Assembly: GCA_016192915.1 (NCBI GenBank)
Contig: JACPTF010000017.1
Coordinates: forward strand, 1 to 36,547
Length of the DNA stretch: 36,547 bases
Reading direction: 5' to 3'
Source of the DNA: Candidatus Woesearchaeota archaeon
Lineage (GTDB): Archaea; Nanobdellota; Nanobdellia; Woesearchaeales; UBA10216
The position numbers and the translations under genes are program-made. Under the pieces are notes generated by a model. The model saw only the letters and a list, made by a program, of their open reading frames with translations, searched no databases and was not told the DNA's origin. This document shows, one piece after another, positions 3,461 through 30,603 of this stretch. The stretch's first letter is position 1; each line of letters begins with the position of its first letter.

Positions 3461-3642
3461 TGCCCCCGGCGGGATTTGAACCCGCGTCTCGGGCGTTCTC
3501 CGTGACTGTGGATTTCTTGGTTGGGCCCAAGTCGCTTTCAGCGACTGGGCCCAGTCGAGCTTACCTCGACTTGGGCTTCTTTGCTTGCCAAAGAAGGTCA
3601 CACGAGAGGCCCACATCCTTGACCGGTCTAGACTACAGGGGC
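3461..3642 (-). tRNA. tRNA-Glu(CUC) with 107-nt intron
   Basis: The acceptor GCCCCTG (from 3642) pairs with CGGGGGC (3462-3468), A at 3461 is the discriminator, and the T-arm is GCGGG-TTCAAAT-CCCGC. Exon 1 is 3603-3642 and exon 2 is 3461-3495, giving a 75-nt mature tRNA with anticodon CTC. The intron (3496-3602) is at the canonical 37/38 position. The splice sites form a perfect BHB: CTCT pairs with GGAG, with 3-nt bulges CGT and AAC, and the next helix is GTGAC/GTCAC. The intron contains a CTTCTTTG/CAAAGAAG hairpin and one double-hairpin element. A T-tract follows the 3' end; CCA is not encoded. A TATA box near 3690-3697 gives a short leader containing a GACCCTTTT hairpin. Confidence 0.93.
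3526..3575. repeat. Double-hairpin palindromic element, copy A
   Basis: A 50-nt element inside the tRNA-Glu intron. The first hairpin pairs CCC plus AGTCGCT with AGCGACT plus GGG, leaving one unpaired A. The second pairs CCC plus AGTCGAG with CTCGACT plus GGG, leaving one unpaired T. The two hairpins are reverse complements of each other in design, so the whole element is a palindrome around CGACTGGGCCCAGTCG. Confidence 0.85.
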
Positions 3643-3766
3643 TGACCCTTTTAAGAAAAGGGTCAATCCAAAAACGAACAATAGGTTGCTTTTAAATCTT
3701 GTCCTGTGCAACACTTACAAAGAAAATCAGCAAAATATAAAAAGCAGGCGCACAGCCGCCAAAGCT

Positions 3767-4087
3767 ATGCAAGGCGTACACACCGAGAAAGTTCCAGGCG
3801 GGAAACTGGTAAGGATGAAAGTAGACTTCAACCCGGAAGGCGGGCTAATAGAGGACGTGCAGATGCAAGGCGACTTCTTCATACACCCCGAGGAATTTGT
3901 GGAGAACATAGAGCAGCTTCTCGTCAACCTTGACCAGAAAGACAGCGAGGAATCAATAGCTGCGGCGCTAAGCAGGCTGATTGAAGACGAAGGTGCAGAG
4001 CTTGTTGGCATAACGCCCGAATCAATAGCAAAGACTTTCAGGAATGCATTAGCCAATGCGATAGCGCAGCCGGTCCTGCCACAGTGA
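3767..4087 (+). CDS. lplB: Lipoate-protein ligase accessory subunit LplB
   Basis: A 106-residue protein corresponding to the C-terminal domain of lipoate-protein ligase. It opens with TEKVPGGKLVRMKVDF and has MQGDFFIHPEE followed by IEQLLVNL, the hallmark pattern of that domain (K-x-P-x-G-K-L and GDFF-x-P-E). In Thermoplasma and other archaea the ligase is split into a catalytic LplA and this LplB, and both are needed to activate lipoate to lipoyl-AMP. The ATG at 3767 is chosen because a TATA box at 3733-3742 is about 28 bases upstream; earlier in-frame codons lie across the promoter. LplA follows immediately, so the two are co-transcribed. Confidence 0.88.
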   Translation: MQGVHTEKVPGGKLVRMKVDFNPEGGLIEDVQMQGDFFIHPEEFVENIEQLLVNLDQKDSEESIAAALSRLIEDEGAELVGITPESIAKTFRNALANAIAQPVLPQ

Positions 4088-4107
4088 CTCTTTTTGCGAG
4101 GGAAAAA

Positions 4108-4860
4108 ATGCCAAAGTGGAGGGTAATAGACCTGACGGTAAACACTGCAGCCATGAACATGGCGCTGGATGAAGCCATAAGCGAAGCTGCCCGCACGAAA
4201 GCTTCTCTGCCAACAATACGGTTTTACAAGTGGCTGCCGAGCGCCGTGTCAATTGGCTACTTCCAAAGCCTAAAAGACGAGGTTGACGTTGACCTCTGCA
4301 AGAGGCTCGGTGTTGACTTTGTCCGGAGGAGGACAGGCGGCGGGGCAGTTTACCACGACAGCAACGGCGAGCTAACATACAGCGTAATCGCTCACGAAGC
4401 AATGTTTCCGAAGGGAATTACAGAGTCCTACCACTTAATTTGCGGCTGGATTGTTGATGCGCTCGGAAGGATAGGGATACCTGCAGAGTTCAAGCCGATA
4501 AACGACATAATCGCTGCCGGGAAGAAGATTTCCGGAAACGCCCAGACGAGAAGGAAAGGCGTACTGCTGCAGCACGGCACCATACTCTACAAGCTGGACG
4601 TTGCAACTATGTTCTCGCTGCTGAAAGTGCCAAAAGAAAAAATCTCTGACAAATTCATCGCGGATGTCAAGCAGAGGGTGACTTCTGTAACCGATATAAA
4701 TTCGCAGATTTCTGAGCAGCAGCTGAAGGAAGCGCTTGTTGCCGCTTTTACAGAAGGGAAGGAGTTTGAATTCGGCGCTTTGACTGAGAATGAGAAAGCT
4801 ACTGCGGAGAAACTTGTAAAAGAAAGGTATGCGGCAGACGAGTGGAATTTTCTAAGATGA
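4108..4860 (+). CDS. lplA: Lipoate-protein ligase A, catalytic subunit
   Basis: A 250-residue biotin/lipoate ligase fold. Seen here are the lipoate-binding RRRTGGGAVYHD (about residues 71-82), the KISGNAQTRRKG motif with the catalytic lysine region, and the QHGTIL strand. It activates lipoate with ATP and transfers it to a lysine of the lipoyl domain, the likely target being E2 at 5750-7048. It lacks the C-terminal accessory domain, which is the separate upstream gene, so this is a bipartite ligase. The ATG at 4108 has a GAGG ribosome-binding site. A GTG at 4084 overlapping the lplB stop is an alternative start adding 8 residues. Confidence 0.92.
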   Translation: MPKWRVIDLTVNTAAMNMALDEAISEAARTKASLPTIRFYKWLPSAVSIGYFQSLKDEVDVDLCKRLGVDFVRRRTGGGAVYHDSNGELTYSVIAHEAMFPKGITESYHLICGWIVDALGRIGIPAEFKPINDIIAAGKKISGNAQTRRKGVLLQHGTILYKLDVATMFSLLKVPKEKISDKFIADVKQRVTSVTDINSQISEQQLKEALVAAFTEGKEFEFGALTENEKATAEKLVKERYAADEWNFLR

Positions 4861-4873
4861 GCCACCGGACATT

Positions 4874-5500
4874 TTAAGGAAGTGCCGTATATTGGTCAAA
4901 GAAAGTGTCTAGTTGCCTCTTAGCATGCGGAAAATTTCTTTCAATGCTACCTACAACGTAGTGAGGAGATTCAAAGCTTTCCTTCACAGGAAGGATATCA
5001 GTCGCTGCCTTTACTATAACAACAGGCACGCCATGCGCTTTTGCTGCGGCTGCCAGTCCATACGACTCCAAATCAACGCCAACAATACCTGATAGAACCT
5101 CTTCCCTAGAAGCCACCAGATGGTCAAAGGTTTGGAACGCCCCAACATGATGAGGTATCGATTGCACAGATAAGCATCCGACTACTTTTTCAAGCAGGCT
5201 AGACTGCACGGGGATATCGTGGTCGCCGTAATGCACGCGGTTTGCGACAAGGAGGCAGCCAACGCCGAGATTGTCCTGTGCCGCGCCACAGATGCCTAAG
5301 GATAAGATGTAATCGGGCTTGTACGCCTCAAACAGCGTACTTAACGCGTTGGCCGCGTTTGTTTGTCCAATTCCCGAAACGGTCACATAAACGGAATGGC
5401 CACCTACCGGAACCTCCACAATCTCCCCCTGCTCTTTGCTGAAAGGAAGTGCTGAAGGAACTTCCCATTCAACAGCACATACAAGACCGATTCCAACCAT
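4874..5500 (-). CDS. Purine nucleoside phosphorylase-family enzyme
   Basis: A 208-residue protein of the PNP/MTA-SAH nucleosidase superfamily. It starts MVGIGLVCAVEWE, has the SGIGQTNAANAL ligand-binding loop, the YILSLGICGAA strand, DLESYGLAAAAKAHGVP (conserved acidic/Glu motif contacting the ribose) and VVIVKAATDILP. Members cleave methylthioadenosine, S-adenosylhomocysteine or futalosine-type nucleosides; the exact substrate cannot be told. The ATG at 5500 has a TATA-like TTTTTAAG about 28 bases upstream. The frame is open further upstream, but that part runs into the double-hairpin element and tRNA sequence, so it is not counted. Confidence 0.8.
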   Translation of the reverse strand: MVGIGLVCAVEWEVPSALPFSKEQGEIVEVPVGGHSVYVTVSGIGQTNAANALSTLFEAYKPDYILSLGICGAAQDNLGVGCLLVANRVHYGDHDIPVQSSLLEKVVGCLSVQSIPHHVGAFQTFDHLVASREEVLSGIVGVDLESYGLAAAAKAHGVPVVIVKAATDILPVKESFESPHYVVGSIERNFPHAKRQLDTFFDQYTALP

Positions 5501-5573
5501 TTTCCGACAAAGGAGTTGTGCATTCCTTAAAAAGGATACGGTGAGCGTTCCGTTGCAGATTAACAAGCTATGG

Positions 5574-5625
5574 GCGCAAGTCGGCAGCAGCCGACTGCGC
5601 AGTCCTGCAAAAGCAGGACTTGCGC
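5574..5625. repeat. Double-hairpin palindromic element, copy B
   Basis: Arms GCGC plus AGTCGGC/GCCGACT plus GCGC, then AGTCCTGC/GCAGGACT with the same closing GCGC. The first hairpin has an unpaired A and the second an unpaired T, as in the other copies. The two hairpins here have different stem sequences. The element touches the last base pair of the orphan tRNA acceptor and stands where other tRNAs of this window have a T-tract. Confidence 0.8.
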
Positions 5626-5691
5626 CGGGCCCGGGAATCGAACCCGGAAGGCTTCGCAGCAACTTTCGGGTTCACCAATTTCGGAGCCCGA
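5623..5691 (-). tRNA. Orphan 3' part of a type II (Ser-like) tRNA
   Basis: Every base fits the 3' two thirds of a long-variable-arm tRNA: an anticodon-type stem TCGGG/CCCGA (5687-5691 and 5666-5670) around a 16-nt loop, a variable arm AAG-TT-GCT-GCGA-AGC-CTT (5648-5665), a T-arm CCGGG-TTCGATT-CCCGG (5631-5647), the acceptor strand GCCCGGC (5624-5630) and G73. The long variable arm and G73 point to tRNA-Ser. No matching 5' acceptor (GCCGGGC or wobble form) or D-arm occurs upstream, downstream or elsewhere in the window. The 16-nt loop gives no clear serine anticodon. It may be the 3' half of a trans-spliced split tRNA, as in Nanoarchaeum and Caldivirga, or a decayed gene. Confidence 0.55.
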
Positions 5692-5693
5692 TT

Positions 5694-5743
5694 CCCAATT
5701 CGGCTTCGCCGAATGGGCCCAATCGGCTTATTGCCGATTTGGG
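5694..5743. repeat. Double-hairpin palindromic element, copy at orphan tRNA 5' side
   Basis: Exactly 50 nt: CCC plus ATTCGGC/GCCGAAT plus GGG, then CCC plus ATCGGC/GCCGAT plus GGG, again with one unpaired A in the first hairpin and one unpaired T in the second. The stem reads ATTCGG or ATCGG rather than AGTCG, so the fold is kept while the sequence changed on both sides. It ends 2 bases from the orphan tRNA part. Confidence 0.85.
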
Positions 5744-5749
5744 TTCTTT

Positions 5750-7048
5750 TTATTTTTCAACAGGCAATAAAGCTGGATTCTCAAGATAACTTATCACAGT
5801 GTTCAGAAACGCAGCCGCCTGCGCTCCGTCAATTATTCTGTGGTCGTAAGTGAATGAGAGGGGCATGATTTTCCGGACAACGATTTTACCATCCTTGACA
5901 ACAGGCTTCTCAACAATTTTGCCGATGCCGAGGATTGCGGCTTCAGGGTAATTTATGATTGGAGTGAAGAAGGTGCCTCCGATTGAGCCAAGGTTGCTTA
6001 TGGTGAATGTGCCTCCCTGCATGTCGGCCACGTCCAGCTTGCGGCTGCGGGCTTTCTCAGCCAGGCCCTGGATTTCCTTGGCAACTGCCATGATTGCTTT
6101 TGCATTGGCGCCTTTGACAACAGGGACAACCAATCCAGAATCTGTAGCAACGGCAAAGCCTATATTGTAATATTCTTTTACCACGATTTCCTGGGCTGTT
6201 TCATCAAGGCTGCTGTTGACTATGCTGTGCTCAGGCTTCTTCAGCGAGTTAACAACTGCTTTTATTATGAAAGGCACGAAAGTGAGCTTGAAGCCTTTCT
6301 TTTCCGCAGATTTCTTTTCCCTATCCCTTACTGCCGCCAGTTCAGTGATATCAGCTTCATCAAAATTGGTAACAGCCGCGGTTTTTGAAGCTGAAAGCGA
6401 CATCCTGTCAGCTGTTACTTTTCTAATGCCTTTCAGGGGCAGCCTCTGCACGTAGCCCCACATGTCGTATTTTTTGGTGACTTTGATTTGCTGGCCGGAT
6501 GATGATTGCAGTTCACTTTTCACTGCTGCGGCTGCTGGTGCTGAAGAAACACCGGCTGCACTTTTAACGTCCTCTTCAGTAACCCTGCCGCCAGGTCCTG
6601 TGCCCTTGACTGAGGAAAGGCTGACCTTAAGCTCAGCAGCAAGCCTTCTCACAGCAGGCATCGCAAAAACGCCCTTGTCAATGTCAGACATCGAGCCTGG
6701 AAGGAAGCCAACAACTGCGCCTGCATCCTTCTTTTCAGCTTTTTTAAGCACCTTCTCTGCAGTTGCTGCCGTTACATCAGTTGCTTTTCCAGGAACGTAT
6801 TTTTCGACTTTCTGGCCAATAACAACAATAACATCGCCAACGTTTATCTTCTGGCCCTCGCTGCTTTTGTGCCGGAACAGAATTATCCCGGTTCGGGGAC
6901 TGGGCACCTCAACAACTGCCTTGTCTGTTTCAATCTCAACAAGAACCTGGTCCTCCTTTACGGCATCACCAACGCGGACGCGCCACTTTACAATCTCGCC
7001 CTCTGTTATTCCCTGCCCAACATCCGGAAACCTGAATTCGTAAGCCAC
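5750..7048 (-). CDS. Dihydrolipoamide acyltransferase E2
   Basis: A 432-residue E2 subunit of a 2-oxoacid dehydrogenase complex. Residues 1-78 are the lipoyl domain with the lipoylated lysine in EIETDKAVVEVPSP. A peripheral subunit-binding domain follows at about 125-165 (AVRRLAAELKVSLSSVKGTG). The C-terminal half is the acyltransferase core, ending in SFTYDHRIIDGAQAAAF, which carries the catalytic DHR-x3-D-G motif. It moves acyl groups from E1 to CoA. The start is GTG at 7048 with a TATA-like TTAAAG about 25 bases upstream. It stands apart from the E1 genes at 11662-13713, with a P-type ATPase and an accessory island between. Confidence 0.93.
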   Translation of the reverse strand: MAYEFRFPDVGQGITEGEIVKWRVRVGDAVKEDQVLVEIETDKAVVEVPSPRTGIILFRHKSSEGQKINVGDVIVVIGQKVEKYVPGKATDVTAATAEKVLKKAEKKDAGAVVGFLPGSMSDIDKGVFAMPAVRRLAAELKVSLSSVKGTGPGGRVTEEDVKSAAGVSSAPAAAAVKSELQSSSGQQIKVTKKYDMWGYVQRLPLKGIRKVTADRMSLSASKTAAVTNFDEADITELAAVRDREKKSAEKKGFKLTFVPFIIKAVVNSLKKPEHSIVNSSLDETAQEIVVKEYYNIGFAVATDSGLVVPVVKGANAKAIMAVAKEIQGLAEKARSRKLDVADMQGGTFTISNLGSIGGTFFTPIINYPEAAILGIGKIVEKPVVKDGKIVVRKIMPLSFTYDHRIIDGAQAAAFLNTVISYLENPALLPVEK

Positions 7049-7067
7049 GATTTAACCCCTGCAGAGC

Positions 7068-7085
7068 CCCTTTAACTAGCTAGTT
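7068..7085. promoter_or_regulatory. Palindromic site over the E2 promoter
   Basis: AACTAGCTAGTT (7074-7085) is a perfect 12-bp palindrome touching the TATA-like region of the E2 gene and facing the P-type ATPase promoter. It could be an operator. No regulator gene is adjacent. Confidence 0.4.
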
Positions 7086-7174
7086 TAATAGTTTTGCGGA
7101 TTTCAGGCAAAAACAGCGCAGAAAACCTTTTAAACCTGCCAGCGAGTGAAGGGTATTGAAGAGCATAAAAAAAG

Positions 7175-9835
7175 ATGGTGCAGCCGTTGACTGAATCGAC
7201 CAAATTAAGTGGACAGCACTACACAATGCCTATACACAGCGTCCTCCAAAAGCTCGACACTTCTGAAAAGGGGCTCAGCTCAGAGGAAGCCGCAAAAAGG
7301 CTTTCCGAATTCGGCGCAAATGAGCTGAAGGAAGGAAAAAAGGCATCAGCGCTTGAAATCTTCTTAAGGCAGTTTAAGAACGTCGTAATATGGATACTAA
7401 TTTTTGCCACAGTAATATCGGCATTCCTGAAGGAGTACATAGATGCAGTAGTGATACTGGTCATAATCGTGCTTATAGCAGTGCTGGGATTCGTGCAGGA
7501 GTTCCGCGCGGAAAAAGCCATAGAAGCGCTAAAAAAGCTGGCGCCGCTTAAGACAATTGCGCTCAGAAGCGGCCAGAAAAGGGAGATTGACGCGAAGGAC
7601 CTTGTTCCGGGAGACATAATCCTGCTCGAGACAGGGAACAAGGTACCAGCTGACGCGCTGCTGATTGAAGTGCACAACCTCCAGACACAGGAAGCCTCGC
7701 TTACCGGCGAATCCACGCCGATAGCCAAGGCCGTGTGCACACTCGCGGCAGAAACAAGCGTAGCAGACAGGAAAAATTGCGTTTTCTCCAGCACTGTTGT
7801 GGTAAGCGGAAAGGCCAAGGCGGTGGTCGCGGCAACCGGAATGCGAACCGAGATTGGAAAAATAGCGACAATGCTTAACGAAGTCAAGCCAGAGCCAACG
7901 CCCCTGCAGAAAAAGATGGACAGGCTAGGCACAACGCTCAGCAAGGCGGTTGTGGCAATTGCGGCGATAGTCCTGGTTGCGGGAATTATCTTCCAAAAAG
8001 CGCCAATGATTGACATGCTGCTGGTAGCGGTAGCAGTAGCAGTAGCGGCAATACCAGAAGGGCTGCCTGCCATAGTGACGCTGTCCCTTGCGCTGGGCAC
8101 GCAGAAAATGCTCAAAAGGCACGCGCTGATAAGGCGGCTGCCAAGCGTCGAAACACTGGGCTCAACCACCGTAATCTGCACTGACAAGACAGGAACGCTA
8201 ACAACAAACCAGATGACTGTCAGGAAGCTCTTTGCAAACGGAAAAATAACAGACGTAACCGGAGTGGGATATGAAACCAAGGGCGGGTTCCTGCGCGATG
8301 AAAAGCCAGCCAGGATTGATGACGAAACAAAGCTTCTCCTTAAGCTTGGCACGCTGAACAACAACGCAGAGCTAAAGGACGGCAGCGTGCTTGGCGACCC
8401 GACGGAAGGCGCGCTGATAGTAAGCGCGGCAAAGGCAGGCATGAGCAAGGCCAGCTTGGAAGCAGAATACATGCGCGTTGATGAGATAGAGTTCACCAGC
8501 GAAAGAAAAATCATGACAACAATCCACAAGCGGGATGGCAAAAAAATCGCCTACGTGAAGGGCGCGCCGGAAATCGTGCTCAAGGCCTGCAGCCACATAC
8601 TGCTGAAAGGCAGGGAGCTCAAGCTGACAGACAGCACAAGGAAGACCATACTGGACGTCAACAGGGGATTTGCCGATACGGCACTCAGGGTGCTGGGCTT
8701 TGCCTACAATCGGGCAGCTGGCAAGGCACCGGAAAAAGACCTGGTCTTTGTTGGCCTGCAGGCGATGATTGACCCGCCAAGAACTGAGGTAAAGGCTGCC
8801 ATAGAAAAATGCAGGCAGGCAGGAATCAGGGTCGTAATAATAACAGGCGACCACGAGTCAACAGCACAGGCAGTTGCAAGGGAAATAGGGCTGGAAGGCA
8901 AATCGCTCACAGGAGCGCAGCTTGACACCATAACCAACTTGGAGGAAATAGTTGAAGACGTGGCAGTGTTTGCAAGGGTCAACCCTGAGCACAAGATAAA
9001 GATAGTCAGCGCGCTAAAAAAGAAAGGGCATGTTGTCGCAATGACCGGGGACGGGGTTAACGACGCGCCTGCACTCAAGAAAGCGGACATAGGCATAGCA
9101 ATGGGAATAACAGGCACAGACGTCAGCAAGGAAGCAAGCGCAATGATACTTACCGACGACAACTTCGCCTCAATAGTCAACGCGGTTGAGGAGGGAAGAG
9201 GCGTCTACGACAACATAAGAAAATACATAGCATTCCTGCTCTCAGGGAACATAAGCGAAGTTCTGATAATAGTCCTTGGCATAATCTTCGGGCTCCCGCT
9301 GCCTCTCACGGCAACCCAGATACTTTTGATAAACCTTGTGACTGACGGCCTGCCAGCGCTCGCATTAAGCACAGACCCGTTCGAGCCCAACGCAATGACG
9401 AGAAAGCCGCGCAGGCAGGACGAGCCTGTCTACAGCGGGCTGAAGCCATTCCTCCTGTACTATCCGATCGTAATGACAGCAGCAGCGCTGGCAGTGTTCA
9501 GCTGGTTCTACTTCAAGCAAGGCAACTACCTGCAGGCGCAAACAGCAACGTTCCTGACCATAGGAATGTTTGAGCTCTACCAGGCTCTCGCGTCAAGGTC
9601 AACAATCTACCCCGCATTAAAAGTCGGAATATTCAAGAACAAGCTACTGGTGCTCGCTGTCCTGAGCTCATTCGCGTTCATCGCAGCAGGCATATTCATC
9701 CCGGCATTCGGCAAATACATAGACATGGTGCCGCTCAGCATTGGGCAATTTGCGTTCATATGCGCAATATCAAGCATGGGCGCAGTGATAATAGAGGTGT
9801 CAAAGTACCTGAACACCAGGAAAACACCAGGCTAA
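7175..9835 (+). CDS. Calcium-type P-type ATPase (P2)
   Basis: An 886-residue cation pump. In order: an N-terminal cation-ATPase domain; two helices; the actuator domain with SLTGES; M4 with the PEGLP ion-binding motif; phosphorylation site DKTGTLT; the nucleotide-binding domain with [25 protein letters not shown]; and a C-terminal block with SGNISE in M5 and [12 protein letters not shown] in M6. The residues forming SERCA calcium site II (E in PEGL, N in NLVTD, and the D) are present, so a single-site calcium or manganese exporter in the plasma membrane is likely. The calcium site I acidic residue of M8 is not evident. A TATA-like TTTTAAA at about 7130 precedes a short leader. Confidence 0.93.
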
Positions 9836-9962
9836 TACTTCGCCACCGTGCCCAGATCGCTGAGAAATCCGTTAAGCCCGAAACATAACAAAAAGATTTA
9901 AGTAGGATAAAGCACTATCCATCTTCAAGCGTGAGGTGTGCCGTTTTAGGGGTTGAACGGTC

Positions 9963-10241
9963 ATGGCTGGTTTAAAGGTGTTAAAGAAAAAGTTTTTAAA
10001 GGGTACTAGCTCAGATAGAGCTATGAAAAAAGAGGAGGTTGTGTTGCGACCTTCAGGCTTGTCTATGCTTAGTCAAGATGAATTAGTTGAATATCAAGGT
10101 AAATGCTTGGGGATAGTCGAAGGTAAGGTTAAATTCTCTGATGCTGATGCCGATAAGGTACTTCGTGGGCTAATGAGTGTTAAGAGTGAGGATAAAGTAT
10201 TTACGTGTGTGCCTAATATTAAAGCTACCATGGTAAAGTAA
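9963..10241 (+). CDS. DUF5678-like small protein
   Basis: A 92-residue protein. The C-terminal half, from ELVEYQGKCLGIVEGKVKFS through ADKVLRGLM to VFTCVPNIK, resembles DUF5678: a short beta-rich domain with a yeGk-x-vaiv-x-gki pattern and a final strand ending in a VP motif. The N-terminus is basic. Function is unknown. In other genomes DUF5678 proteins sit next to retropepsin-like proteases, and that is the case here: the next gene starts 2 bases after this stop. The TATA-like AAGATTTAAG near 9892 gives a leader with a CCGTT/AACGG hairpin. Codon use is AT-richer than the surrounding genes. Confidence 0.65.
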   Translation: MAGLKVLKKKFLKGTSSDRAMKKEEVVLRPSGLSMLSQDELVEYQGKCLGIVEGKVKFSDADADKVLRGLMSVKSEDKVFTCVPNIKATMVK

Positions 10242-10243
10242 AA

Positions 10244-10747
10244 ATGAGTATACCCTTTTCTTATCAGGCGTTCCCCCCTTTGAGTCCGGAACCGAGGCTA
10301 CGACCTATAATCAGAGTGACGTTAAAATATGGAGATACAGTCCAAGACTTCGATGCGCTTGTTGATTCCGGCTCAGATGTTACATTATCATACGTAACTC
10401 TGGGAGTACCTATGGGTTTGAAACTGAATTATGATGATACTGCCAAAAAGAAAATTGAAACTTTAACTGGCTTGCCATTTGACCATACTATTAATGGTTT
10501 GGGAAAAGAGCCTGTTAAGGTTTGTGTTGTACCTGCTAAGTTGGTGATATACGGAAAGGAAATCACAGCAAGTATTCATTGGATTAAGGAGGATTTTAAC
10601 TCTGCTACTGACTTTTCAATTGTGCTTGGACAAGATACAATCTTTTCTTTGTTTGATATACATTTTTCAAAGAGGCAGCATAAGTTCTTTCTTAATGAAA
10701 AAGTTTTAACACCCGATAACTCAAATAATCCCCCCCTTCAAAAATAG
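10244..10747 (+). CDS. Retropepsin-like aspartic protease
   Basis: A 167-residue single-domain clan AA aspartic protease. It has the catalytic FDALVDSGSDVTL motif (D-S/T-G) about a third of the way in, and the C-terminal VLGQDTIFSLFDIHFSKRQH hydrophobic-Gly motif typical of retropepsins, where two monomers form one active site. It has no signal peptide or membrane helix. It follows the DUF5678-like gene by 2 bases and is probably translated with it. It ends in TAG, the only confident TAG stop I noted in this window, and it is AT-rich, both suggesting acquired DNA. The target is unknown. Confidence 0.75.
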   Translation: MSIPFSYQAFPPLSPEPRLRPIIRVTLKYGDTVQDFDALVDSGSDVTLSYVTLGVPMGLKLNYDDTAKKKIETLTGLPFDHTINGLGKEPVKVCVVPAKLVIYGKEITASIHWIKEDFNSATDFSIVLGQDTIFSLFDIHFSKRQHKFFLNEKVLTPDNSNNPPLQK

Positions 10748-10835
10748 GCACTCTCGGGTATATGTGAATTGCAGACAAGTAATCAGGTGATTATTTACAA
10801 AAGGTTTTTATTCCGAATAGTGAAATCGGACTTTT

Positions 10836-11594
10836 ATGAAGAATTCCTGGTTGGCGGCTGCATTAGCCTTTTTCTTGTTTCCTTTTTCCGCAGGCTATAT
10901 TTATTTAAAAAGATGGTTAGATGCAGCAGTATGGATAACTATTGTGTGGTTGTTGATAGCATTTGATAAATCGTCCTTCTTAGTCCTCATAATTCCATTT
11001 ACCACTTGGGACTGTTATAGAACCGCCAAAAAAGACAATCAAAAAGCTATGGAACTTGCTAAAGAAACTGAAAGAAAGAAGAAGTTGGCCAACCTTGAAA
11101 AAAATAAAAAATTAGCGATAGCTAAATTTGAAACTGAACAGAAAGCCAAAGGCTTAATTAAATTTAACGGTAAATGGGGTACGCCTGAACAAGTTAAGAA
11201 GTGGAAGGAAGTAGAAATTGGTCTCGACAAAAACTTTGCACACCTATCTCACTTTGAATTTGAAGAGTTTATTGGTGAGCTTTTTAGGAAAATGCGGTAT
11301 AACGCAGTTGTAACAAGAAAAACAGGAGATTTCGGCATAGATGTCATAGCCAAAAACTCAAAGGATACAATTGCTATTCAGGTAAAGCAAAACTCTGCAG
11401 GCAATCACGTTGGCGCTGTAACTGTACAGAATGTTCTTGGCTCAATGTGGCAGTACAAAGCCAATAAGGCCATCATAATCACAACGTCTGACTTTACTGT
11501 TCAAGCAGAACAGCAAGCTAAAGAAGCACCAGTTGAGCTTTGGAATAAGAGGCTTCTGCATGAAATGGTTAGAAAATACTTTATAGACAAATGA
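10836..11594 (+). CDS. Membrane-anchored Mrr-like restriction endonuclease
   Basis: A 252-residue protein. Two transmembrane helices lie at about residues 4-23 and 30-55, followed by a charged helical linker rich in Lys and Glu (about 65-110). The C-terminal third is an Mrr-type nuclease domain: HFEFEEFIGELFRKMRY, TGDFGIDVIA and IAIQVKQ form the D-x-n-Q-x-K catalytic core of the PD-(D/E)XK fold. Such nucleases cut modified or foreign DNA. Membrane anchoring suggests action on incoming DNA. A TATA box near 10804-10812 lies about 27 bases before the ATG. It belongs to the same AT-rich island as the two upstream genes. Confidence 0.8.
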   Translation: MKNSWLAAALAFFLFPFSAGYIYLKRWLDAAVWITIVWLLIAFDKSSFLVLIIPFTTWDCYRTAKKDNQKAMELAKETERKKKLANLEKNKKLAIAKFETEQKAKGLIKFNGKWGTPEQVKKWKEVEIGLDKNFAHLSHFEFEEFIGELFRKMRYNAVVTRKTGDFGIDVIAKNSKDTIAIQVKQNSAGNHVGAVTVQNVLGSMWQYKANKAIIITTSDFTVQAEQQAKEAPVELWNKRLLHEMVRKYFIDK

Positions 11595-11661
11595 AGAGTC
11601 GCTTGTTTGCGGGGGTTATCACATAATTCTTAAATTGTGACTGCCAAAAATAAACCAGACC

Positions 11662-12630
11662 TCAAAAGCTAGCCGCCGTCTCAATTGCAGCCACAATCCG
11701 CTCTATGCTCGGAAGATAATGGTCCTCAAGCTTGTAAAGCGGGAAGATGGTGTCAAACCCTGCCACCCTTATTACGGGCGCCTGCAGGCTTGACAAAGCA
11801 CTGTCATTAATCTGGGCAATGATTTCAGATGAGAGGCCGCCGGTTCTCGGCGCTTCCTGGACCACAACGCATCGCCCGGTTTTTTTCACAGAAGCAATTA
11901 TGGTATCAGCATCAAGCGGCTTCAAGGTGCGCAGGTCAATGAGCTCAACATCAACACTTGTATGAGCAAGGGCGAGCTTGGCCTGCTGCAGCATCGAGCC
12001 CCAGCTGATGACTGTAACCTGGCTGCCTGCCCTGACAACCTTTGCCTTCCCAAGCGGGACAGTGTATGACCCTTCCGGAACATCCTCCTTCACAGCACGG
12101 TAAAGCCTGCTTGGCTCCATAAACACAACCGGGTTATCGTCCTTTATTGCACTGATGAGAAGGCCCTTCGCATCGTAAGGGCTTGACGGGATAACAACCT
12201 TCAACCCTGGAGTGTGAACGTAAATCGCTTCCAGGCTCTCGGAATGGTGCTCCAATGCGCGGATTCCGCCACTGTAAGGCGTCCTCACAACAAGAGGGCA
12301 GGTGAAGCTGCCACGGCTTCTGGTTCGGATTCTTGCAGCATGGTTAATCAGCTGGGCAAAGGCCATGTAAAGAAAGCCTGAAAACTGAATCTCAGGAACA
12401 GGCCGCAAGCCGGCAGCGGCCATGCCAATTGAAACGCCAATAATTGCTGACTCAGCAAGGGGCGTGTCCACTACACGCTGCCCGCCAAACTGCTTAAGCA
12501 AGCCCTCAGTAGCCCTGAAGACACCGCCGTCAACGCCAACATCCTCGCCAAGGACAACCACTCTTGCATCATCAGCCAGGGCGCACTTCAAGCCCGAATT
12601 CACCGCCTGAATAAGATTCATCACTGCCAT
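11662..12630 (-). CDS. 2-oxoacid dehydrogenase E1 beta subunit
   Basis: A 322-residue transketolase-like subunit. It begins MAVMNLIQAVNSGLKCAL and contains VLGEDVGVDGGVFRAT, the DTPLAESAIIGVSIGMA helix and the YSGGIRALEHHSES loop, all typical of PDH/BCKDH E1-beta. With the alpha subunit it forms the heterotetramer that decarboxylates a 2-oxoacid on thiamine diphosphate and acylates the lipoyl arm of E2. The sequence does not distinguish pyruvate from branched-chain substrates. It is the last gene of the thioredoxin-like / lipA / E1-alpha / E1-beta operon, 6 bases after E1-alpha. It is convergent with the nuclease gene. Confidence 0.93.
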   Translation of the reverse strand: MAVMNLIQAVNSGLKCALADDARVVVLGEDVGVDGGVFRATEGLLKQFGGQRVVDTPLAESAIIGVSIGMAAAGLRPVPEIQFSGFLYMAFAQLINHAARIRTRSRGSFTCPLVVRTPYSGGIRALEHHSESLEAIYVHTPGLKVVIPSSPYDAKGLLISAIKDDNPVVFMEPSRLYRAVKEDVPEGSYTVPLGKAKVVRAGSQVTVISWGSMLQQAKLALAHTSVDVELIDLRTLKPLDADTIIASVKKTGRCVVVQEAPRTGGLSSEIIAQINDSALSSLQAPVIRVAGFDTIFPLYKLEDHYLPSIERIVAAIETAASF

Positions 12631-12636
12631 CTTAAT

Positions 12637-13713
12637 TTACCTGCCTTCAATCAGCTTTTTGTAGTCATCCATCTGCTGCTGCAAAAGCTGCGGCATCTCC
12701 GAATACGTGTACTTGAAAATGTCATCAACATCAGCCCTGGGAACTTTTTCGTACTCGCCAACAGCAGAGGAAACCCGCCTTTCAGCCCGGACAAAAAGCT
12801 CCCCCTCTTTTTTTGCATTCCAAAGCTTCCTTAACTCCAGGAACCTCCTGAAGCGCAGCACAGGGTCCTTCTTTCGCCAGGCAGCGACTTCTGCCTCTGA
12901 GCGGTACTTTGAGGCGTCATCGCTTGTTGTGTGGTTACCCAAGCGGTAAGTAAAGCACTCGATAAGCGTGGGACCTTCTCCAAGGTAAGCCTTCTTAACT
13001 GCAGCTGCTGCAGCTGAGTACACAGCGAGGATGTCGTTGCCATCCACCCTGACGCCCTCAAAGCCAAAGCCAACAGCCCTCTGTGCAAGTGTTTCGGCAG
13101 CGGTTTGCTGCTTCACCGGAACAGAGATAGCATACTGGTTGTTCTGGCACAGGAAAATAACCGGCGCCTTGAAAACTCCTGCAAAGTTAAATGCCTCATT
13201 CATGTCGCCCTCAGACGAAGCGCCATCCCCAAGGCACGCCAAAGTTGCGAATTTCCTTTTCGTTATCGTTGCCGCCATTGCTGCGCCTACTGCGTGCAAG
13301 CCCTGAGTCCCAACAGGGATGGCGATTGGAAAATTGTTAACGCCCTTTGGAGGAATGCTGCCGCGCTCATCACCACCGAAGTACTGGAAGAGCCTCACCA
13401 TAGGCTGATTCCTGACAACCAAAACAGCAGCGTCACGATAAGTGGGAAAAACCCAGTCAGAGCCGCCAAGGGCGTACGCTGCCCCCACCTGTGCGGCCTC
13501 CTGGCCCAAAAAAGAAGCATAAGTGCCCAATCTTCCCTGCCGCTGCAACGAAAGGGCTTTCTCGTCAAACTTCCTGCACAGAACCATCAGCTCATAAAGC
13601 TCAACAAGCTGCTTTGGGGAAAGCTTTGGCATAAGCTTGGCATCACACTTTCCGCTCTCATCAAGAACCTGCAGATATTTTACAGTGAACGTCTTTAAGA
13701 CTTTCTCCGCCAT
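12637..13713 (-). CDS. 2-oxoacid dehydrogenase E1 alpha subunit
   Basis: A 358-residue TPP-binding subunit. The thiamine diphosphate motif is clear: CLGDGASSEGDMNEAFNF followed by the NNQ of LCQNNQYA (G-D-G ... N-N). The RLGNHTTSDDASKYR loop is the family's phosphorylation-loop equivalent, ordering the active site, and upstream is YRDAAVLVVR. It pairs with the E1-beta gene that follows at once. Its ATG starts 1 base after the lipA stop, so the genes are translationally linked and the cofactor-making enzyme is expressed with its client complex. Confidence 0.94.
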   Translation of the reverse strand: MAEKVLKTFTVKYLQVLDESGKCDAKLMPKLSPKQLVELYELMVLCRKFDEKALSLQRQGRLGTYASFLGQEAAQVGAAYALGGSDWVFPTYRDAAVLVVRNQPMVRLFQYFGGDERGSIPPKGVNNFPIAIPVGTQGLHAVGAAMAATITKRKFATLACLGDGASSEGDMNEAFNFAGVFKAPVIFLCQNNQYAISVPVKQQTAAETLAQRAVGFGFEGVRVDGNDILAVYSAAAAAVKKAYLGEGPTLIECFTYRLGNHTTSDDASKYRSEAEVAAWRKKDPVLRFRRFLELRKLWNAKKEGELFVRAERRVSSAVGEYEKVPRADVDDIFKYTYSEMPQLLQQQMDDYKKLIEGR

Positions 13714-13714
13714 T

Positions 13715-14668
13715 TTAGCTGTAATCCTCCAAATCCTTTGCTTTCAAAACATTCTTCACAAAAAGCTCCCCTGCACGGTAAGAGCTACGGACAAAGGGGC
13801 CTGCAGCAACGTACTTGAAGCCCAGGCTCTCACCAGCAAGTTTCAGCTTATTAAACCTTTCTGGCGCGATGTATTCTGCAACAGGAAGATGCAAAGCGCT
13901 CGGCCTAAGATACTGGCCAAGCGTAAGGATATCAACGCCCACTGCCAGAAGGTCATTCATCGCCAGAATAACCTCCTCCTCAGTTTCTCCCAGCCCAAGC
14001 ATGATTGAGGATTTTGTGAACACTTTAGGATTAATCTCCTTTATTGTTGCCAACACTGACAACGACTGCTCATAACCTGCCCTTGGGTCCCTCACTTTCC
14101 CCTGCAGCCGCCTGACCGTCTCGAGGTTGTGGCCAAAGACGTCAGGACCAGCTTCAACAACGGTTCGTATGCATTCGTTGCTACCGCGAAAGTCAGGAGT
14201 AAGCACCTCAACCATTATGCCATGCACGGCCTTTTTTACTTCCTTCACACAGCTTGCGAAATGCCCTGCCCCCTGGTCAGGAATATCATCGCGGTCAACT
14301 GATGTAATCACGATGTAATCAATCTTATCGCTGCTGCCAAGCTGGTTCATCTCCTTAATACACATGGCAAGCATGGAAGGCTCTGCCTTGTTGACAATCC
14401 CTCTTGGATTCCCAGTCTTCACCGCACAGAACTTGCAGCCTCTGGTGCACGTATCGCCAAGAACCATAAAAGTAGCGGTTCCCCCACTCCAGCACTCTGA
14501 CATGTTAGGGCAGTGCGCCTCCTCGCAGACAGTGTGCAGCCCAAAATGCGCAACAAGCTCCTTCAGCTCTGCAAATGTCTCTGTCGGAGGCCTAATCTTA
14601 AGCCAGCCCGGCTTGCCGCCATAAACGTGAGTTGATTCTGCCGCCAATTGAATCCGCATGTTACACAC
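13715..14668 (-). CDS. lipA: Lipoyl synthase
   Basis: A 317-residue radical SAM enzyme that inserts two sulfurs into octanoyl groups. Both iron-sulfur motifs are present: CEEAHCPNMSEC (auxiliary cluster, C-x4-C-x5-C) and CTRGCKFC (radical SAM C-x3-C-x2-C). The C-terminal RSSYRAGE serine that ligates the auxiliary cluster is also there. The N-terminus has PGWLKIRPP as in other LipA proteins. The start could be the ATG at 14668 or the one at 14659. No LipB octanoyltransferase is in the window; LplA could load octanoate. The gene follows a thioredoxin-like gene by 29 bases and precedes E1-alpha. Confidence 0.95.
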   Translation of the reverse strand: MCNMRIQLAAESTHVYGGKPGWLKIRPPTETFAELKELVAHFGLHTVCEEAHCPNMSECWSGGTATFMVLGDTCTRGCKFCAVKTGNPRGIVNKAEPSMLAMCIKEMNQLGSSDKIDYIVITSVDRDDIPDQGAGHFASCVKEVKKAVHGIMVEVLTPDFRGSNECIRTVVEAGPDVFGHNLETVRRLQGKVRDPRAGYEQSLSVLATIKEINPKVFTKSSIMLGLGETEEEVILAMNDLLAVGVDILTLGQYLRPSALHLPVAEYIAPERFNKLKLAGESLGFKYVAAGPFVRSSYRAGELFVKNVLKAKDLEDYS

Positions 14669-14697
14669 CGTTGCAGCCGCACTAAACAGCCGGTCAC

Positions 14698-14970
14698 TCA
14701 GCTAAGAGCCCATTCTTTAAGCTTCCCGTATTTTGTGTTGCCGCAAATCCACTTACCGCTTTTCTCATTGAAGAAAAAAGGGATGCCGCCGCACCTGCCA
14801 GCGTCAAGCTTCTGAAGAAAAGCCATATTCTCAGAGTTATGCCAGACCTCAAGCTTCTCAACCTTCACGCCAAGCTCCTTCTCCAGCTTCTCAACCAAAG
14901 GGTTCATCTCGTGGCAATGCGTGCACTCAGTGCCCGTAAACATTATCAGCCTTTTGCCATTCTCAGCCAT
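14698..14970 (-). CDS. Thioredoxin/glutaredoxin-like protein
   Basis: A 90-residue thioredoxin fold with ECTHCHEMNPLVEKLEKEL at residues 14-32, a C-x2-C redox site (CTHC), and a cis-proline region at GIPFFFN. It is shorter than classical thioredoxin. It is the first gene of the lipA / E1-alpha / E1-beta operon, so it may supply electrons or handle sulfur for the lipoyl pathway or reduce the complex; that is inference from position. The TATA box lies in the duplicated 43-bp segment at 15001-15044, about 30 bases upstream. Confidence 0.82.
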   Translation of the reverse strand: MAENGKRLIMFTGTECTHCHEMNPLVEKLEKELGVKVEKLEVWHNSENMAFLQKLDAGRCGGIPFFFNEKSGKWICGNTKYGKLKEWALS

Positions 14971-15000
14971 TACAATTTCACCACAATTTGCAACGATTAA

Positions 15001-15044
15001 CCTATTAAAAAGCGTTATTAAAAAGCTTTCTGTAGGGCTAAAAA
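15001..15044 (-). promoter_or_regulatory. Duplicated promoter segment, copy 1
   Basis: On the minus strand it contains two TATA-like boxes, GCTTTTTAATAACG and GCTTTTTAATAGG. The second lies about 30 bases upstream of the thioredoxin-like start. It matches the segment at 15514-15556 over 43 bases with two differences. Confidence 0.75.
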
Positions 15045-15049
15045 TTCCA

Positions 15050-15484
15050 TCATACTGAACTCGAAGGGGGCATGGCGGAAGAAGGGCTAAAGTAGTCTTT
15101 AATGCTGCCGTTTTTCACGACCATGGCAATGCCATTATCAAACCTGACGTAATTAATGGTCCTTGCCCTGTATCTCGCACTAATGCCAGCAGTGCAGTCA
15201 TGAGGATGATTCGGCAAACCCATAAGAAAAGGCTTCAGATCACGCACAAATTCAGAGTTATACATGATAAAGAAGCTAAGTAATGGCGAAATAGTGCCAT
15301 CCTTGAAGGCCATATGACACTCAAGACTAAGGCTATTGCTAATGAAAAACGATGCGGCAGGCTTGCAAGTAAGCGCGCCTCTAAGAACATACAGACGGCG
15401 CTGGGTCATTGGCGTAAATGACTCTGACACTTTAACGTCAAGAGCCTCCCATTCCGAAATTTTATCTGGCGTGGTTACAGCCAT
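15050..15484 (-). CDS. Hypothetical protein, tandem copy 1
   Basis: A 144-residue protein I do not recognise. It has no signal peptide or clear membrane helix. It is rich in beta-strand patterns: RRLYVLRGALT, FFISNSLSLECHMAF, SPLLSFFIMY and INYVRFDNGIAMVV. It is driven by the duplicated promoter segment at 15514-15556. Its C-terminal pattern (Y-hydrophobic-basic, then A-M-V-V) parallels the end of the neighbouring 15569-15976 protein, and both genes end just beyond a copy of the same 43-bp repeat. They are probably diverged paralogues from a tandem duplication. No function is proposed. Confidence 0.6.
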   Translation of the reverse strand: MAVTTPDKISEWEALDVKVSESFTPMTQRRLYVLRGALTCKPAASFFISNSLSLECHMAFKDGTISPLLSFFIMYNSEFVRDLKPFLMGLPNHPHDCTAGISARYRARTINYVRFDNGIAMVVKNGSIKDYFSPSSAMPPSSSV

Positions 15485-15513
15485 TAAAACCCACCTCTTC
15501 CCACAATACGCTG

Positions 15514-15556
15514 CCTATTAAAAAGCATTATTAAAAAGCTTTCTGTAGCGCTAAAA
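15514..15556 (-). promoter_or_regulatory. Duplicated promoter segment, copy 2
   Basis: It holds the same paired TATA-like boxes as the segment at 15001-15044. The proximal one is about 33 bases upstream of the 15484 start codon. Two bases differ between the copies (G/A and G/C). It also lies just after the stop of the 15569-15976 gene. Confidence 0.75.
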
Positions 15557-15568
15557 GAAAAATCAGGG

Positions 15569-15976
15569 CTAAGCCGGGGCGGCCGAATAAAAAACGGCCT
15601 TCCTCCTAAAGATAACCGCTTCAAGCGTCTCAACCTTCAGATAGCCCACACTTTTCTGTGTAAAAATCTCCCCATAAAGCCTAATTCCAACAACGCCTTC
15701 AAGGCCTTTGCCGCTATTCTGATTAAGAAATTCTGCAATGCTTCTCTCATTGACCTGCGGCTTTCCCACCCTTAGAAGAAGAATGCATGGCAACTTCTCG
15801 CCGTTTGACAAGCCGACAGACAACCGAATTTCGGTAGCCTCGTAATCATTAGTTGAACTCGACAAAGGTGTAATGCCTGAAACCTGAAGGCAAAAATGCC
15901 CTTTTGTTGCGCCTATAACCTTAGCAGGATCTGAAAGGGGCAGATTACGCCAGTATTCAACACTTTCATCAACCAT
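15569..15976 (-). CDS. Hypothetical protein, tandem copy 2
   Basis: A 135-residue protein of unknown function with strand patterns ATEIRLSVGL, LPCILLLRVG, GVVGIRLYGEIF and LEAVIFRRKAV. The Met at 15976 is chosen because a TATA-like TTTTTTTATT lies about 28 bases upstream. The frame is open for another 149 codons, but those would run through tRNA-Ile and part of tRNA-Gly, so they are rejected. Secondary-structure order and the C-terminal end resemble the 15050-15484 protein. Together with the shared 43-bp repeats this suggests a tandem gene duplication. Confidence 0.6.
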   Translation of the reverse strand: MVDESVEYWRNLPLSDPAKVIGATKGHFCLQVSGITPLSSSTNDYEATEIRLSVGLSNGEKLPCILLLRVGKPQVNERSIAEFLNQNSGKGLEGVVGIRLYGEIFTQKSVGYLKVETLEAVIFRRKAVFYSAAPA

Positions 15977-16009
15977 AAGAATCAGCTCAACGCGCAATGA
16001 ATAAAAAAA

Positions 16010-16183
16010 TGGGCCCGACGTGACTTCCACAACCGCTGGTTGACGCTTCATTTTTCCGTCAACGCTTTTGCGAGCATCAGCGAGCAAAAGGGTTGATTTG
16101 AACACGTGACCACCGGCTTTCCTAGCCGTGAACCGATGGCGGTCGTATAAGACCGGCGCTCTACCAAGCTGAGCTACGGGCCC
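16010..16183 (-). tRNA. tRNA-Ile(UAU) with introns at 37/38 and 59/60
   Basis: The acceptor GGGCCCG (from 16183) pairs with CGGGCCC (16011-16017). Exons are 16146-16183, 16097-16118 and 16010-16023, giving 74 nt with anticodon TAT. Intron 1 (16119-16145, 27 nt) has a BHB with CTTA/TAGG and bulges TAC and AAA. Intron 2 (16024-16096, 73 nt) interrupts the T-loop; its BHB is TTCA/TGGA with bulges AAT and AGT and outer helix CAACC/GGTTG. Splicing restores the loop TTCAAAT. Intron 2 has hairpins CTTTTGC/GCAAAAG and GTTGACG/CGTCAAC. Most archaea read AUA with an agmatidine-modified CAU tRNA; a UAU anticodon is the alternative known from Nanoarchaeum and Korarchaeum. A TATA box lies at 16209-16219, and a T-tract follows. 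Confidence 0.9.
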
Positions 16184-16252
16184 ATCAAGCACCAGCGACA
16201 AAAAACTTTGTTTATAAATATTGTGTGCCAAAATAAATAAGGAGAAAAAAAG

Positions 16253-16398
16253 TGCGACGGCCGGGACTTTCGCGGCATTACTCTGCCAGTTCGAACCCGG
16301 GTAACGACCTTTTCGCTTTCCGGCTTTTCCGGAGGCGCTTTTCGCCGTAGCGAAAAGGGTCTTGGCAAGGTCGTGTCTTACCGCTGGACCACCGTCGC
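16253..16398 (-). tRNA. tRNA-Gly(GCC) with introns at 37/38 and 59/60
   Basis: The acceptor GCGACGG (from 16398) pairs with CCGTCGC (16254-16260). Exons are 16363-16398, 16290-16310 and 16253-16266, giving 71 nt with anticodon GCC. Intron 1 (16311-16362, 52 nt) has central helix TTGC/GCGA and two internal hairpins (CTTTTCGC/GCGAAAAG and CCGG/CCGG). Intron 2 (16267-16289, 23 nt) is very short: the BHB is TTCG/CGAA with bulges AAC and AGT, capped by a TGGC/GCCG hairpin. Splicing restores TTCGAAT. A T-tract follows the 3' end. The expected TATA position is filled by double-hairpin copy C. The nearest TATA box (16517-16525) predicts a leader of about 95 nt. Confidence 0.92.
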
Positions 16399-16418
16399 AA
16401 TAAGGGCCGCTTCGCATC

Positions 16419-16469
16419 CACAAGTCGCCTTAGAGGCGACTGTGCACAGTCGGCTTCTGCCGACTTGTG
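16419..16469. repeat. Double-hairpin palindromic element, copy C
   Basis: CAC plus AGTCGCC/GGCGACT plus GTG, then CAC plus AGTCGGC/GCCGACT plus GTG, with one unpaired A and one unpaired T as in the other copies. It lies about 20 bases upstream of the tRNA-Gly 5' end, inside its predicted leader, next to a CCCT/AGGG hairpin at 16478-16492. Confidence 0.85.
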
Positions 16470-16592
16470 CCTTATCAACCCTTACGAGAGGGTCAATCAA
16501 GAAAGTTAAAGGCGTTCTTTTAAATGTTTTGTAAAGAATCTGCCTTGCCATTGGCGAAATTTTTTTAAATCAAATGCGATTGCTTTGCCTCT

Positions 16593-17336
16593 ATGTTGCC
16601 AGAACTGGTAAAAATACTGAGCCTTCAATTGAGGGAAACTTGGAAAGACGGAAACCTGGTAAGAACAGACATAATCGATGCCTCCGGGCAAGCTGTTACG
16701 CCTGACCGAATGCCTGCTAAAGGCTCTTATGAGCATTTTGCGCAATTACTTCAAGAGAAGGGTTATGCCATTCTGCCTGCCCTCTCATTCGCGCCCGGGC
16801 CTGCAGTGCTGCCAACTAGTTTGGCTGTGGTGGGTGAAGCGCCTCCAAGTGTTTTTGAAAGAAGCGTAGACTCTGCTTTGCAGCAAGCATCCTTAGGGCT
16901 TTACAAAAAAGGTTTCCTTTACAGTGACTCGTACAACTCAGCCCACAACAGCAGCTTAAGAAGTGGCTTGTGGTTTTTCCAGCAGTACAATCTAGCTATT
17001 GACGGAACTGCCCGCGGCGAATGTGTTCTGTTTGGCACAGATGGCGCAACAAGCCCTGATGCTTTCTCACCAGGCATTCCTACAATTGAAGCCATCGTCG
17101 GGAGGATGGAAGTGCAGCGCTATGTAACGCTGGTTTCCATGGCAGAGTTTCGCCAAGGCCGCAAATGGGCTGTGCCGCTTAGCATTATTGTCGCTAGCAA
17201 CGGCAGATTGCCTCAAAAGACTGCGTGGAACGAGGTTATAGAGGAAATGGGCTTGCCACTTTATTCATCTGGAAAATTTTATTCTTCTGGAATAATGGCG
17301 AATTCTGTTCGTGATGCCGTGCAAGTACCGGCATGA
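16593..17336 (+). CDS. Hypothetical protein, 247 residues
   Basis: I do not recognise a family. No membrane helix or signal peptide is clear; the composition is that of a soluble alpha/beta protein. Notable stretches are YEHFAQLLQEKGYAILPAL near the N-terminus, CVLFGTDGATSPDAFSPGIP in the middle, and a C-terminal EVIEEMGLPLYSSGKFY. A TATA-like TTTTTTTAAAT at 16558-16570 lies about 28 bases before the ATG, which supports the start and a leaderless mRNA. It is divergent from tRNA-Gly and convergent with tRNA-Val. Confidence 0.65.
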   Translation: MLPELVKILSLQLRETWKDGNLVRTDIIDASGQAVTPDRMPAKGSYEHFAQLLQEKGYAILPALSFAPGPAVLPTSLAVVGEAPPSVFERSVDSALQQASLGLYKKGFLYSDSYNSAHNSSLRSGLWFFQQYNLAIDGTARGECVLFGTDGATSPDAFSPGIPTIEAIVGRMEVQRYVTLVSMAEFRQGRKWAVPLSIIVASNGRLPQKTAWNEVIEEMGLPLYSSGKFYSSGIMANSVRDAVQVPA

Positions 17337-17448
17337 ATTTATTGTAACTGGGTTTTTGTCTTAGGTAGTGACTTCACTTGTTATAAAAACAAGAATGGGC
17401 CCAGCCAGACTTTCGCAGGACCCTTTTGCTCGTTGCGACTCGCAAAAG

Positions 17449-17495
17449 CCCAAGTCGACTCGCGTCGACTGGGCGCAGTCGTTTTACGACTTGCG
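17449..17495. repeat. Double-hairpin palindromic element, copy D
   Basis: CCC plus AGTCGAC/GTCGACT plus GGG, then GCGC plus AGTCG/CGACT plus GCG, with the same unpaired A and T. Closing triplets differ between the two hairpins (CCC/GGG and CGC/GCG). It lies in the tRNA-Val T-loop intron. Confidence 0.82.
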
Positions 17496-17533
17496 CGCCC
17501 CCGGAAAAACGACTTAACGTTTTTTGGTTAAGC

Positions 17534-17583
17534 CGCAAGTCGCTTTTAGCGACTGCGCACAGTCGAGCTATGCTCGACTTGTG
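17534..17583. repeat. Double-hairpin palindromic element, copy E
   Basis: CGC plus AGTCGCT/AGCGACT plus GCG, then CAC plus AGTCGAG/CTCGACT plus GTG, with the unpaired A and T. Exactly 50 nt, in the same tRNA-Val intron as copy D, 38 bases away. Confidence 0.85.
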
Positions 17584-17826
17584 TTTTTGCTCACCGCGGT
17601 GAGTAAAAAGGTCAGTTCGAACTGGCGGCCTTCTCCGCTCTCAGCGACGTTTTTGGATCGAACCTTTTGCTTGCAAAAGGGTCGCTTGTAAGGGAGACGT
17701 CATAACCACTAGACCATGGGCCCGTAAGGGCAGCAATTTGAAAACTGCTTATAAAGTTTCCGCAGCAGCTGCAGCGACGGGAAGACGCAGCAACATTTAA
17801 ATAGCTGTAAACCGGGAAAGAGCAGC

Positions 17827-30534: not shown

Positions 30535-30603
30535 TTTTTGATTAACCTTTTTCCTAAAAAGGTTATCCCGTTTTTTGATTAACCTTTTTCCTAAAAAGGT
30601 TAT
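30534..30603 (-). repeat. Two perfect 33-bp direct repeats, each a hairpin
   Basis: Copies at 30534-30566 and 30571-30603 are identical and separated by CCCG. Each folds as AACCTTTTT/AAAAAGGTT around a 2- to 3-base loop and runs into an A/T tract. The stop codon of the preceding pilin lies inside the outer copy, and the next gene's ATG touches the inner copy. They could be attenuators or partial terminators that lower expression of later genes. Confidence 0.85.

Follow-up and report, generated by a model that had tools for sequence, protein, structure and literature searches.

Are the paired hairpins that cluster around the tRNA genes of this DNA a signal acting on tRNA transcripts, or are they a mobile repeat? 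The window is the whole stretch that was analysed, 36,547 nucleotides, and is one contig (C15) of a 1.2-Mb Woesearchaeota MAG, here labelled G000; by protein search it falls among groundwater MAGs of Candidatus Woesearchaeota. A first-pass annotation described six double hairpins, held them to be confined to tRNA loci and left both readings open. All six were recovered, at the same coordinates or 1-2 nt off, and each followed the plan claimed for them, namely a closing triplet, an unpaired A, stem, loop, stem and triplet, then a mirror hairpin with an unpaired T (Table 1). From their sequence and distribution, we conclude that they very probably belong to a family of mobile but non-autonomous DNA palindromes, or double-hairpin elements, found in one Woesearchaeota lineage.

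Table 1. Coordinates of the double hairpins and tRNA genes of the window, and of nested copies
Feature	Position	Strand	Evidence
Long-form double hairpin CCC..GGG CCC..GGG, in tRNA-Glu(CUC) intron	3526..3575		R1 66.4 bits, E 1.5e-14
Short-form double hairpin, flank CG / core CG / flank CG	5575..5624		R2 63.2 bits, E 3e-16; short form by parser
Long-form double hairpin, stems ATTCGG + ATCGG	5694..5743		R1 63.5 bits, E 7.6e-14
Long-form double hairpin CAC..GTG CAC..GTG, immediately 5' (leader side) of tRNA-Gly(GCC)	16419..16469		R1 61.2 bits, E 2.7e-13
Long-form double hairpin, closing triplets CCC/CGC, in apparent T-arm intron of tRNA-Val	17449..17495		R1 58.8 bits
Long-form double hairpin, closing triplets CGC/CAC, second copy in apparent tRNA-Val T-arm intron	17534..17583		R1 67.2 bits, E 9.6e-15
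tRNA-Glu(CUC), 107-nt intron (57 nt without element)	3461..3642	-	ARAGORN before and after in silico element removal
tRNA-Gly(GCC), intron without element here, filled in congener G005	16254..16398	-	Exon halves aligned across congeners; ends read from sequence
tRNA-Val, anticodon-loop intron and long T-arm intron with two elements	17397..17723	-	T-arm intron read from sequence; Rfam partial match 17611-17716
Nested double hairpins	L100:1546-1644, L082:1506-1602, L089:1545-1639, L102:3777-3915		

Two forms of a DNA palindrome

The copies are ~44-54 bp in size and come in two forms, with five of the six window copies being long and one short. In the long form, NNN-A-stem-loop-stem-NNN is followed directly by its mirror image with an unpaired T, while in the short form both hairpins share a single central dinucleotide, a 2-nt core. 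The A bulge of the first hairpin and the T bulge of the second make the element strand-symmetric, and these two unpaired bases are retained in nearly every copy.

Pairing within the hairpins is close to perfect. In a 14-copy seed alignment, 18 base pairs were 100% paired, double changes occurred in 29 cells and one-sided changes in none, and this covariation was unmatched in shuffled alignments (0/500). Across 78 distinct copies in G000, 1326 of 1353 paired cells were Watson-Crick, with 10 G.T pairs and 17 others. The annotation had taken covariation as an argument for a maintained fold. The covariation is thus confirmed, but the scarcity of G.T pairs and the strand symmetry point to a palindrome in DNA, because a selected RNA fold would tolerate G.U. 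Selection on an RNA fold is rejected for the lack of such tolerance, and we infer that the palindrome is kept or generated at the DNA level.

Distribution, empty sites and host genes

Two covariance models were used to count copies. R1, which finds the six window copies, gave 143 strand-matches in G000, with E values in the window down to 1e-14, and R2, built for the short form, gave 115, a set that overlaps the first; R1 alone, with strand duplicates removed, yields at least 78 distinct copies. R1 matches are abundant in the genus (G001, G004-G006) and thin out across the remainder of the family, where relatives poor in copies include G009, G011-G013 and G015-G018; in 40 other families of the order there are none. 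Among 371 genomes across the phylum, matches at E <= 1e-5 under strict filters fell only in the home family and at one locus in G289. This locus (L246, G289:C30:64669-64719), the sole R1 match outside the home family in the phylum-wide sample, may reflect transfer, contamination or convergence. As regards viral carriage, the long-form pattern had no match in IMG/VR.

That the elements insert is inferred from comparison with congeners, which show clean empty sites. The AspRS gene carries an insert of 48 bp and the IleRS gene one of 51 bp, each facing clean empty sites at congeneric or related loci and missing from every congener compared; at both, the added sequence is exactly CCC...GGG. The long form shows no target duplication at these two sites or at tRNA-Gly. 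At GatA, relatives have a single CA, whereas G000 has a short-form copy with core TG and a CA on either side of it, a 2-bp duplication. The tRNA-Gly(GCC) intron holds a copy in G005 and none in G001 and G000, and the gene is intronless in G003. The sites C1:44514 and C1:56715 each carry a copy in G006 as well as in G000, and therefore some insertions predate the split between these two genomes. The mobile-repeat half of the earlier reading is thus supported by empty sites in congeners, by nested copies and by enrichment at tRNA loci.

Nesting takes the form of double hairpins lying within the loops or arms of others, and produces palindromes of up to 139 nt. The identical short copies L090:1525-1574 and L100:3732-3781 have common flanks (ATAAGGG ... 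CTGCTGCGCCC), which suggests composite palindromes spreading as a unit. Outer inverted repeats around copies are mildly enriched, those of at least 8 nt occurring at 10/80 copies against 19/800 random positions. The window also contains, at 30534-30603, a tandem 33-nt hairpin repeat, TTTTTTGATTAACCTTTTTCCTAAAAAGGTTAT, and similar palindromes, ACCTTTTT...AAAAAGGT, surround several double hairpins; these may be a further palindromic family or a terminator.

Confinement to tRNA loci did not survive the wider count. Most copies lie elsewhere (intergenic, nested in other copies or in-frame in genes), and 14 of the 74 non-overlapping sites have an Rfam tRNA match no more than 250 bp away, against 1.2 expected (p = 2e-11, ~11-fold). 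Conversely, 15 of the 34 Rfam tRNA matches in G000 have an element within 300 bp, and both proximity counts are minima, since long introns hide genes and leave the tRNA list incomplete. Scattered copies were the outcome that the annotation itself had named as refuting; they refute the restriction, a generalisation from a tRNA-rich contig, but the enrichment stands.

Among the tRNA genes of the window, the placement of the first copy in an intron agrees with ARAGORN, which returns tRNA-Glu(CUC) there. ARAGORN calls neither tRNA-Gly nor tRNA-Val, both of which apparently have two introns, one of them in the T arm; the tRNA-Val 5' exon is conserved in congener G003 (L218). The segment between two elements at 5625-5693 is tRNA-like, with a T arm and no recognisable full tRNA, and receives no tRNA call from ARAGORN or Rfam; it may be a decayed gene or one half of a tRNA.

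About 12 copies, a minority of the total, lie in-frame within protein genes, in a list that is biased because out-of-frame copies break the frame and escape it. The interrupted frames include a GatA-type amidase, AspRS, an IleRS-like synthetase, TRM1, a nuclease-fold protein, a Hel308-type helicase, FtsY, STT3 and a Toprim protein, among others. Where coding sites were compared with relatives, the net length difference was always a multiple of three; at one site with a 52-bp element, the relative differs by one further base, for a net of 51. The AspRS insert adds 16 residues in a variable stretch just before the conserved WVxDFP motif of solved AspRS structures, and the predicted peptide spanning it is PKSAATDWAQSQQRLG. 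In the same gene, 33 nt after the element (L071:3529-3531), an Asp-to-Ala change in a conserved motif gives VVAFPLFEW where congeners have VVDFPLFEW, and could be an error or a functional change. Elsewhere in the window, 25317-28304 holds a 995-aa frame for a type IV pilus/secretion-type ATPase with an apparent intein ending HNSG before SGHPSFSTFHAAS.

A core-target rule and what might move the elements

The sequence at the insertion point obeys a simple rule. A parser with no constraint on flanks or core collected 89 short copies in G000 and relatives, and 79 of them had the arrangement XY/rc(XY)/XY, in which the same dinucleotide flanks both sides and the core is its reverse complement; many of the short loci were brought in by R2, a model whose flank and core columns were left unpaired, though it saw their sequence. 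Among the rule-abiding copies, XY was CG in 36, CA in 21, TG in 19, TA in 2 and AG in 1, and is thus nearly always pyrimidine-purine. The long form follows a related pattern, with a four-base core equal to rc(left dinucleotide) + rc(right dinucleotide) in 78 of 82 copies. Short copies with cores identical apart from XY had the same XY in 10/10 pairs, and agreement fades with divergence. Some of these core-identical pairs have common flanks and may be duplicated composites or orthologous sites, not separate insertions, and the agreement is supportive of the rule, not decisive. Arm families of short copies span several XY, so that a guide would have to change often.

On our preferred reading, the element would move as folded single-stranded DNA, and a hairpin nuclease or recombinase acting in trans would recognise its hairpins and its unpaired A and T. 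Such conserved extrahelical bases lend themselves to recognition, as do those of IS608 and REP hairpins (PMC8266576). The short-form core could quite possibly act as a two-base guide pairing with the target or cleavage dinucleotide, in the manner of the guide and cleavage pairing of IS608 (PMC5934647). Enrichment at tRNA loci would then reflect the tolerance of introns and leaders towards incoming elements, and insertions in coding sequence would survive only when in-frame. The two forms differ in how they insert, so a single mechanism may not account for both.

A search for a RAYT/TnpA-type transposase, proposed by the annotation, found no such gene in G000. The profile for Y1 transposases (PF01797) had no match in G000 or in the copy-rich G001, G005 and G006, and a search of G000, G001 and G004-G006 for reverse transcriptases was likewise negative (these genomes being 82-93% complete). 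Y1 genes are present in family members G002, G004, G009, G014, G016 and G017. We tentatively put forward, as a conceivable though less than probable reading, a new kind of archaeal mobile DNA that carries no gene; its central dinucleotide would pair with the target and so pick the landing site, the mover would be neither a known Y1 transposase nor a reverse transcriptase, and insertion would enlarge tRNA introns and rewrite essential proteins in-frame.

The main rival dispenses with a guide altogether. If the copies inserted by any route, and replication template-switching (quasi-palindrome correction) later perfected both the arms and the core-flank pairing, the rule would be a by-product, and such perfection of inverted repeats has been discussed for nematomorph coding palindromes (PMC6649704). 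The near-absence of G.T pairs and mismatches fits this account, as do arm families with several XY values. Correction of the stems should, however, also erase the unpaired A and T, yet these are kept; it explains perfect arms but not retained bulges. Core-identical copies at different places having the same XY also argues against it, and we consider it unlikely, though well worth keeping in view. That the copies are REP/BIME-type elements, moved by a RAYT (Y1 HUH) transposase now lost or encoded on a missing contig, seems to us rather improbable. The resemblance to REP/BIME pairs noted by the annotation holds for the layout, an inverted hairpin pair with an extrahelical base; complementarity to a guide selects the CT/CA dinucleotides at which TnpA-REP cuts (PMC8266576), and some family members do carry Y1 genes. 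The resemblance fails in the tests of end tags, which are not enriched (GTAG 6/171, CGTC 15/171), and of a resident transposase, the copy-rich genomes G000, G001, G005 and G006 having yielded no Y1 gene; about 12 copies, a minority, lie within genes rather than extragenic.

Two explanations that place the function in RNA fare worse. Excised hairpin RNA might be reverse-spliced into transcripts with help from the archaeal splicing endonuclease and ligase, and returned to DNA by a reverse transcriptase. The enrichment at tRNA loci would suit this route, and the double-hairpin elements of Allomyces were proposed to pass through RNA because they lack duplications (PMC2800124), but with no reverse transcriptase in the five genomes searched, no G.U tolerance and a strand-symmetric element, we regard it as very improbable. 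A structural or processing signal for tRNA transcripts, acting in intron folding or end processing and kept by selection, was the other half of the annotation's reading. The ~11-fold enrichment near tRNAs speaks for it; most copies, however, have no tRNA nearby, the orthologous tRNA-Gly gene has the element in one congener and lacks it in others, other copies sit in-frame within protein genes and the pairing lacks G.U tolerance, all of which makes this explanation scarcely credible. The reading that we prefer is that of mobile DNA elements.

Comparison with known mobile palindromes

Our literature search turned up no relevant account of palindromic elements in Woesearchaeota or in the tRNA introns of archaea. 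If the mobile-element reading is true, these copies constitute a palindromic mobile family in archaeal housekeeping genes that resembles Rickettsia palindromic elements (RPEs) and double-hairpin elements (DHEs), and no description of such a family was found in the literature searched. Direct evidence of how archaeal tRNA introns can grow comes from the tRNA-Gly intron, which holds an element in one species and none in others. The dinucleotide core/target rule provides a simple prediction for target finding by gene-less hairpin DNA, and the in-frame insertions in AspRS, IleRS, GatA and others are natural tests of how proteins absorb random peptides.

The transposon IS608 (IS200/IS605 family) offers a possible precedent for the rule, in that its guide sequences pair with the target or cleavage site and its hairpins carry an unpaired base (PMC5934647, PMC8266576); the elements described here likewise have hairpins with an unpaired base, and their short-form core, the candidate guide, is the reverse complement of the flank in 79 of 89 copies. 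IS608, however, encodes a transposase and uses a tetranucleotide target, with TTAC in the left flank, whereas the Woesearchaeota elements are gene-less and have a dinucleotide in its place, the same one on both sides. REP/BIME elements (REPIN) similarly join two imperfect hairpins in inverted orientation, with an extrahelical base; other palindromes can harbour REP dimers (PMC3733652), and the REP cleavage dinucleotide is set by base pairing (PMC8266576). The Woesearchaeota elements differ in having no GTAG/CGTC tag, no RAYT found in the copy-rich G000, G001, G005 and G006, two target modes and, for a minority of copies, insertion in coding DNA.

Closer parallels come from two other groups. 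RPEs are palindromic mobile DNA of 105-146 bp that occurs in RNA genes as well as in-frame within conserved protein genes (PMC2229807), and our palindromes share the in-frame position within conserved protein genes. They are set apart by size and description, being ~44-54 bp, made of two hairpins, archaeal, nested and present in tRNA introns, and their core/target rule has no counterpart described for RPEs (PMC2229807). The DHEs of fungal mitochondrial DNA (Allomyces; Schizosaccharomyces octosporus and osmophilus) likewise join two adjacent hairpins in one short, multi-copy mobile unit. DHEs are patchy between close species, and those of Allomyces have no reported flanking duplication (PMC2800124, PMC10085805); here the long form showed none at AspRS, IleRS and tRNA-Gly, and the short form had a 2-bp CA duplication at GatA. 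Unlike DHEs, the Woesearchaeota elements reside on an archaeal chromosome rather than in mitochondria, have conserved A/T bulges and in-frame copies in essential protein genes, and include a second form combining a 2-bp duplication with a core complementary to the target. By analogy, then, the family appears to work most like mitochondrial DHEs and RPEs, yet the host, size or target features that define those groups exclude it from both; it is a small mobile palindrome with an unusual target rule.
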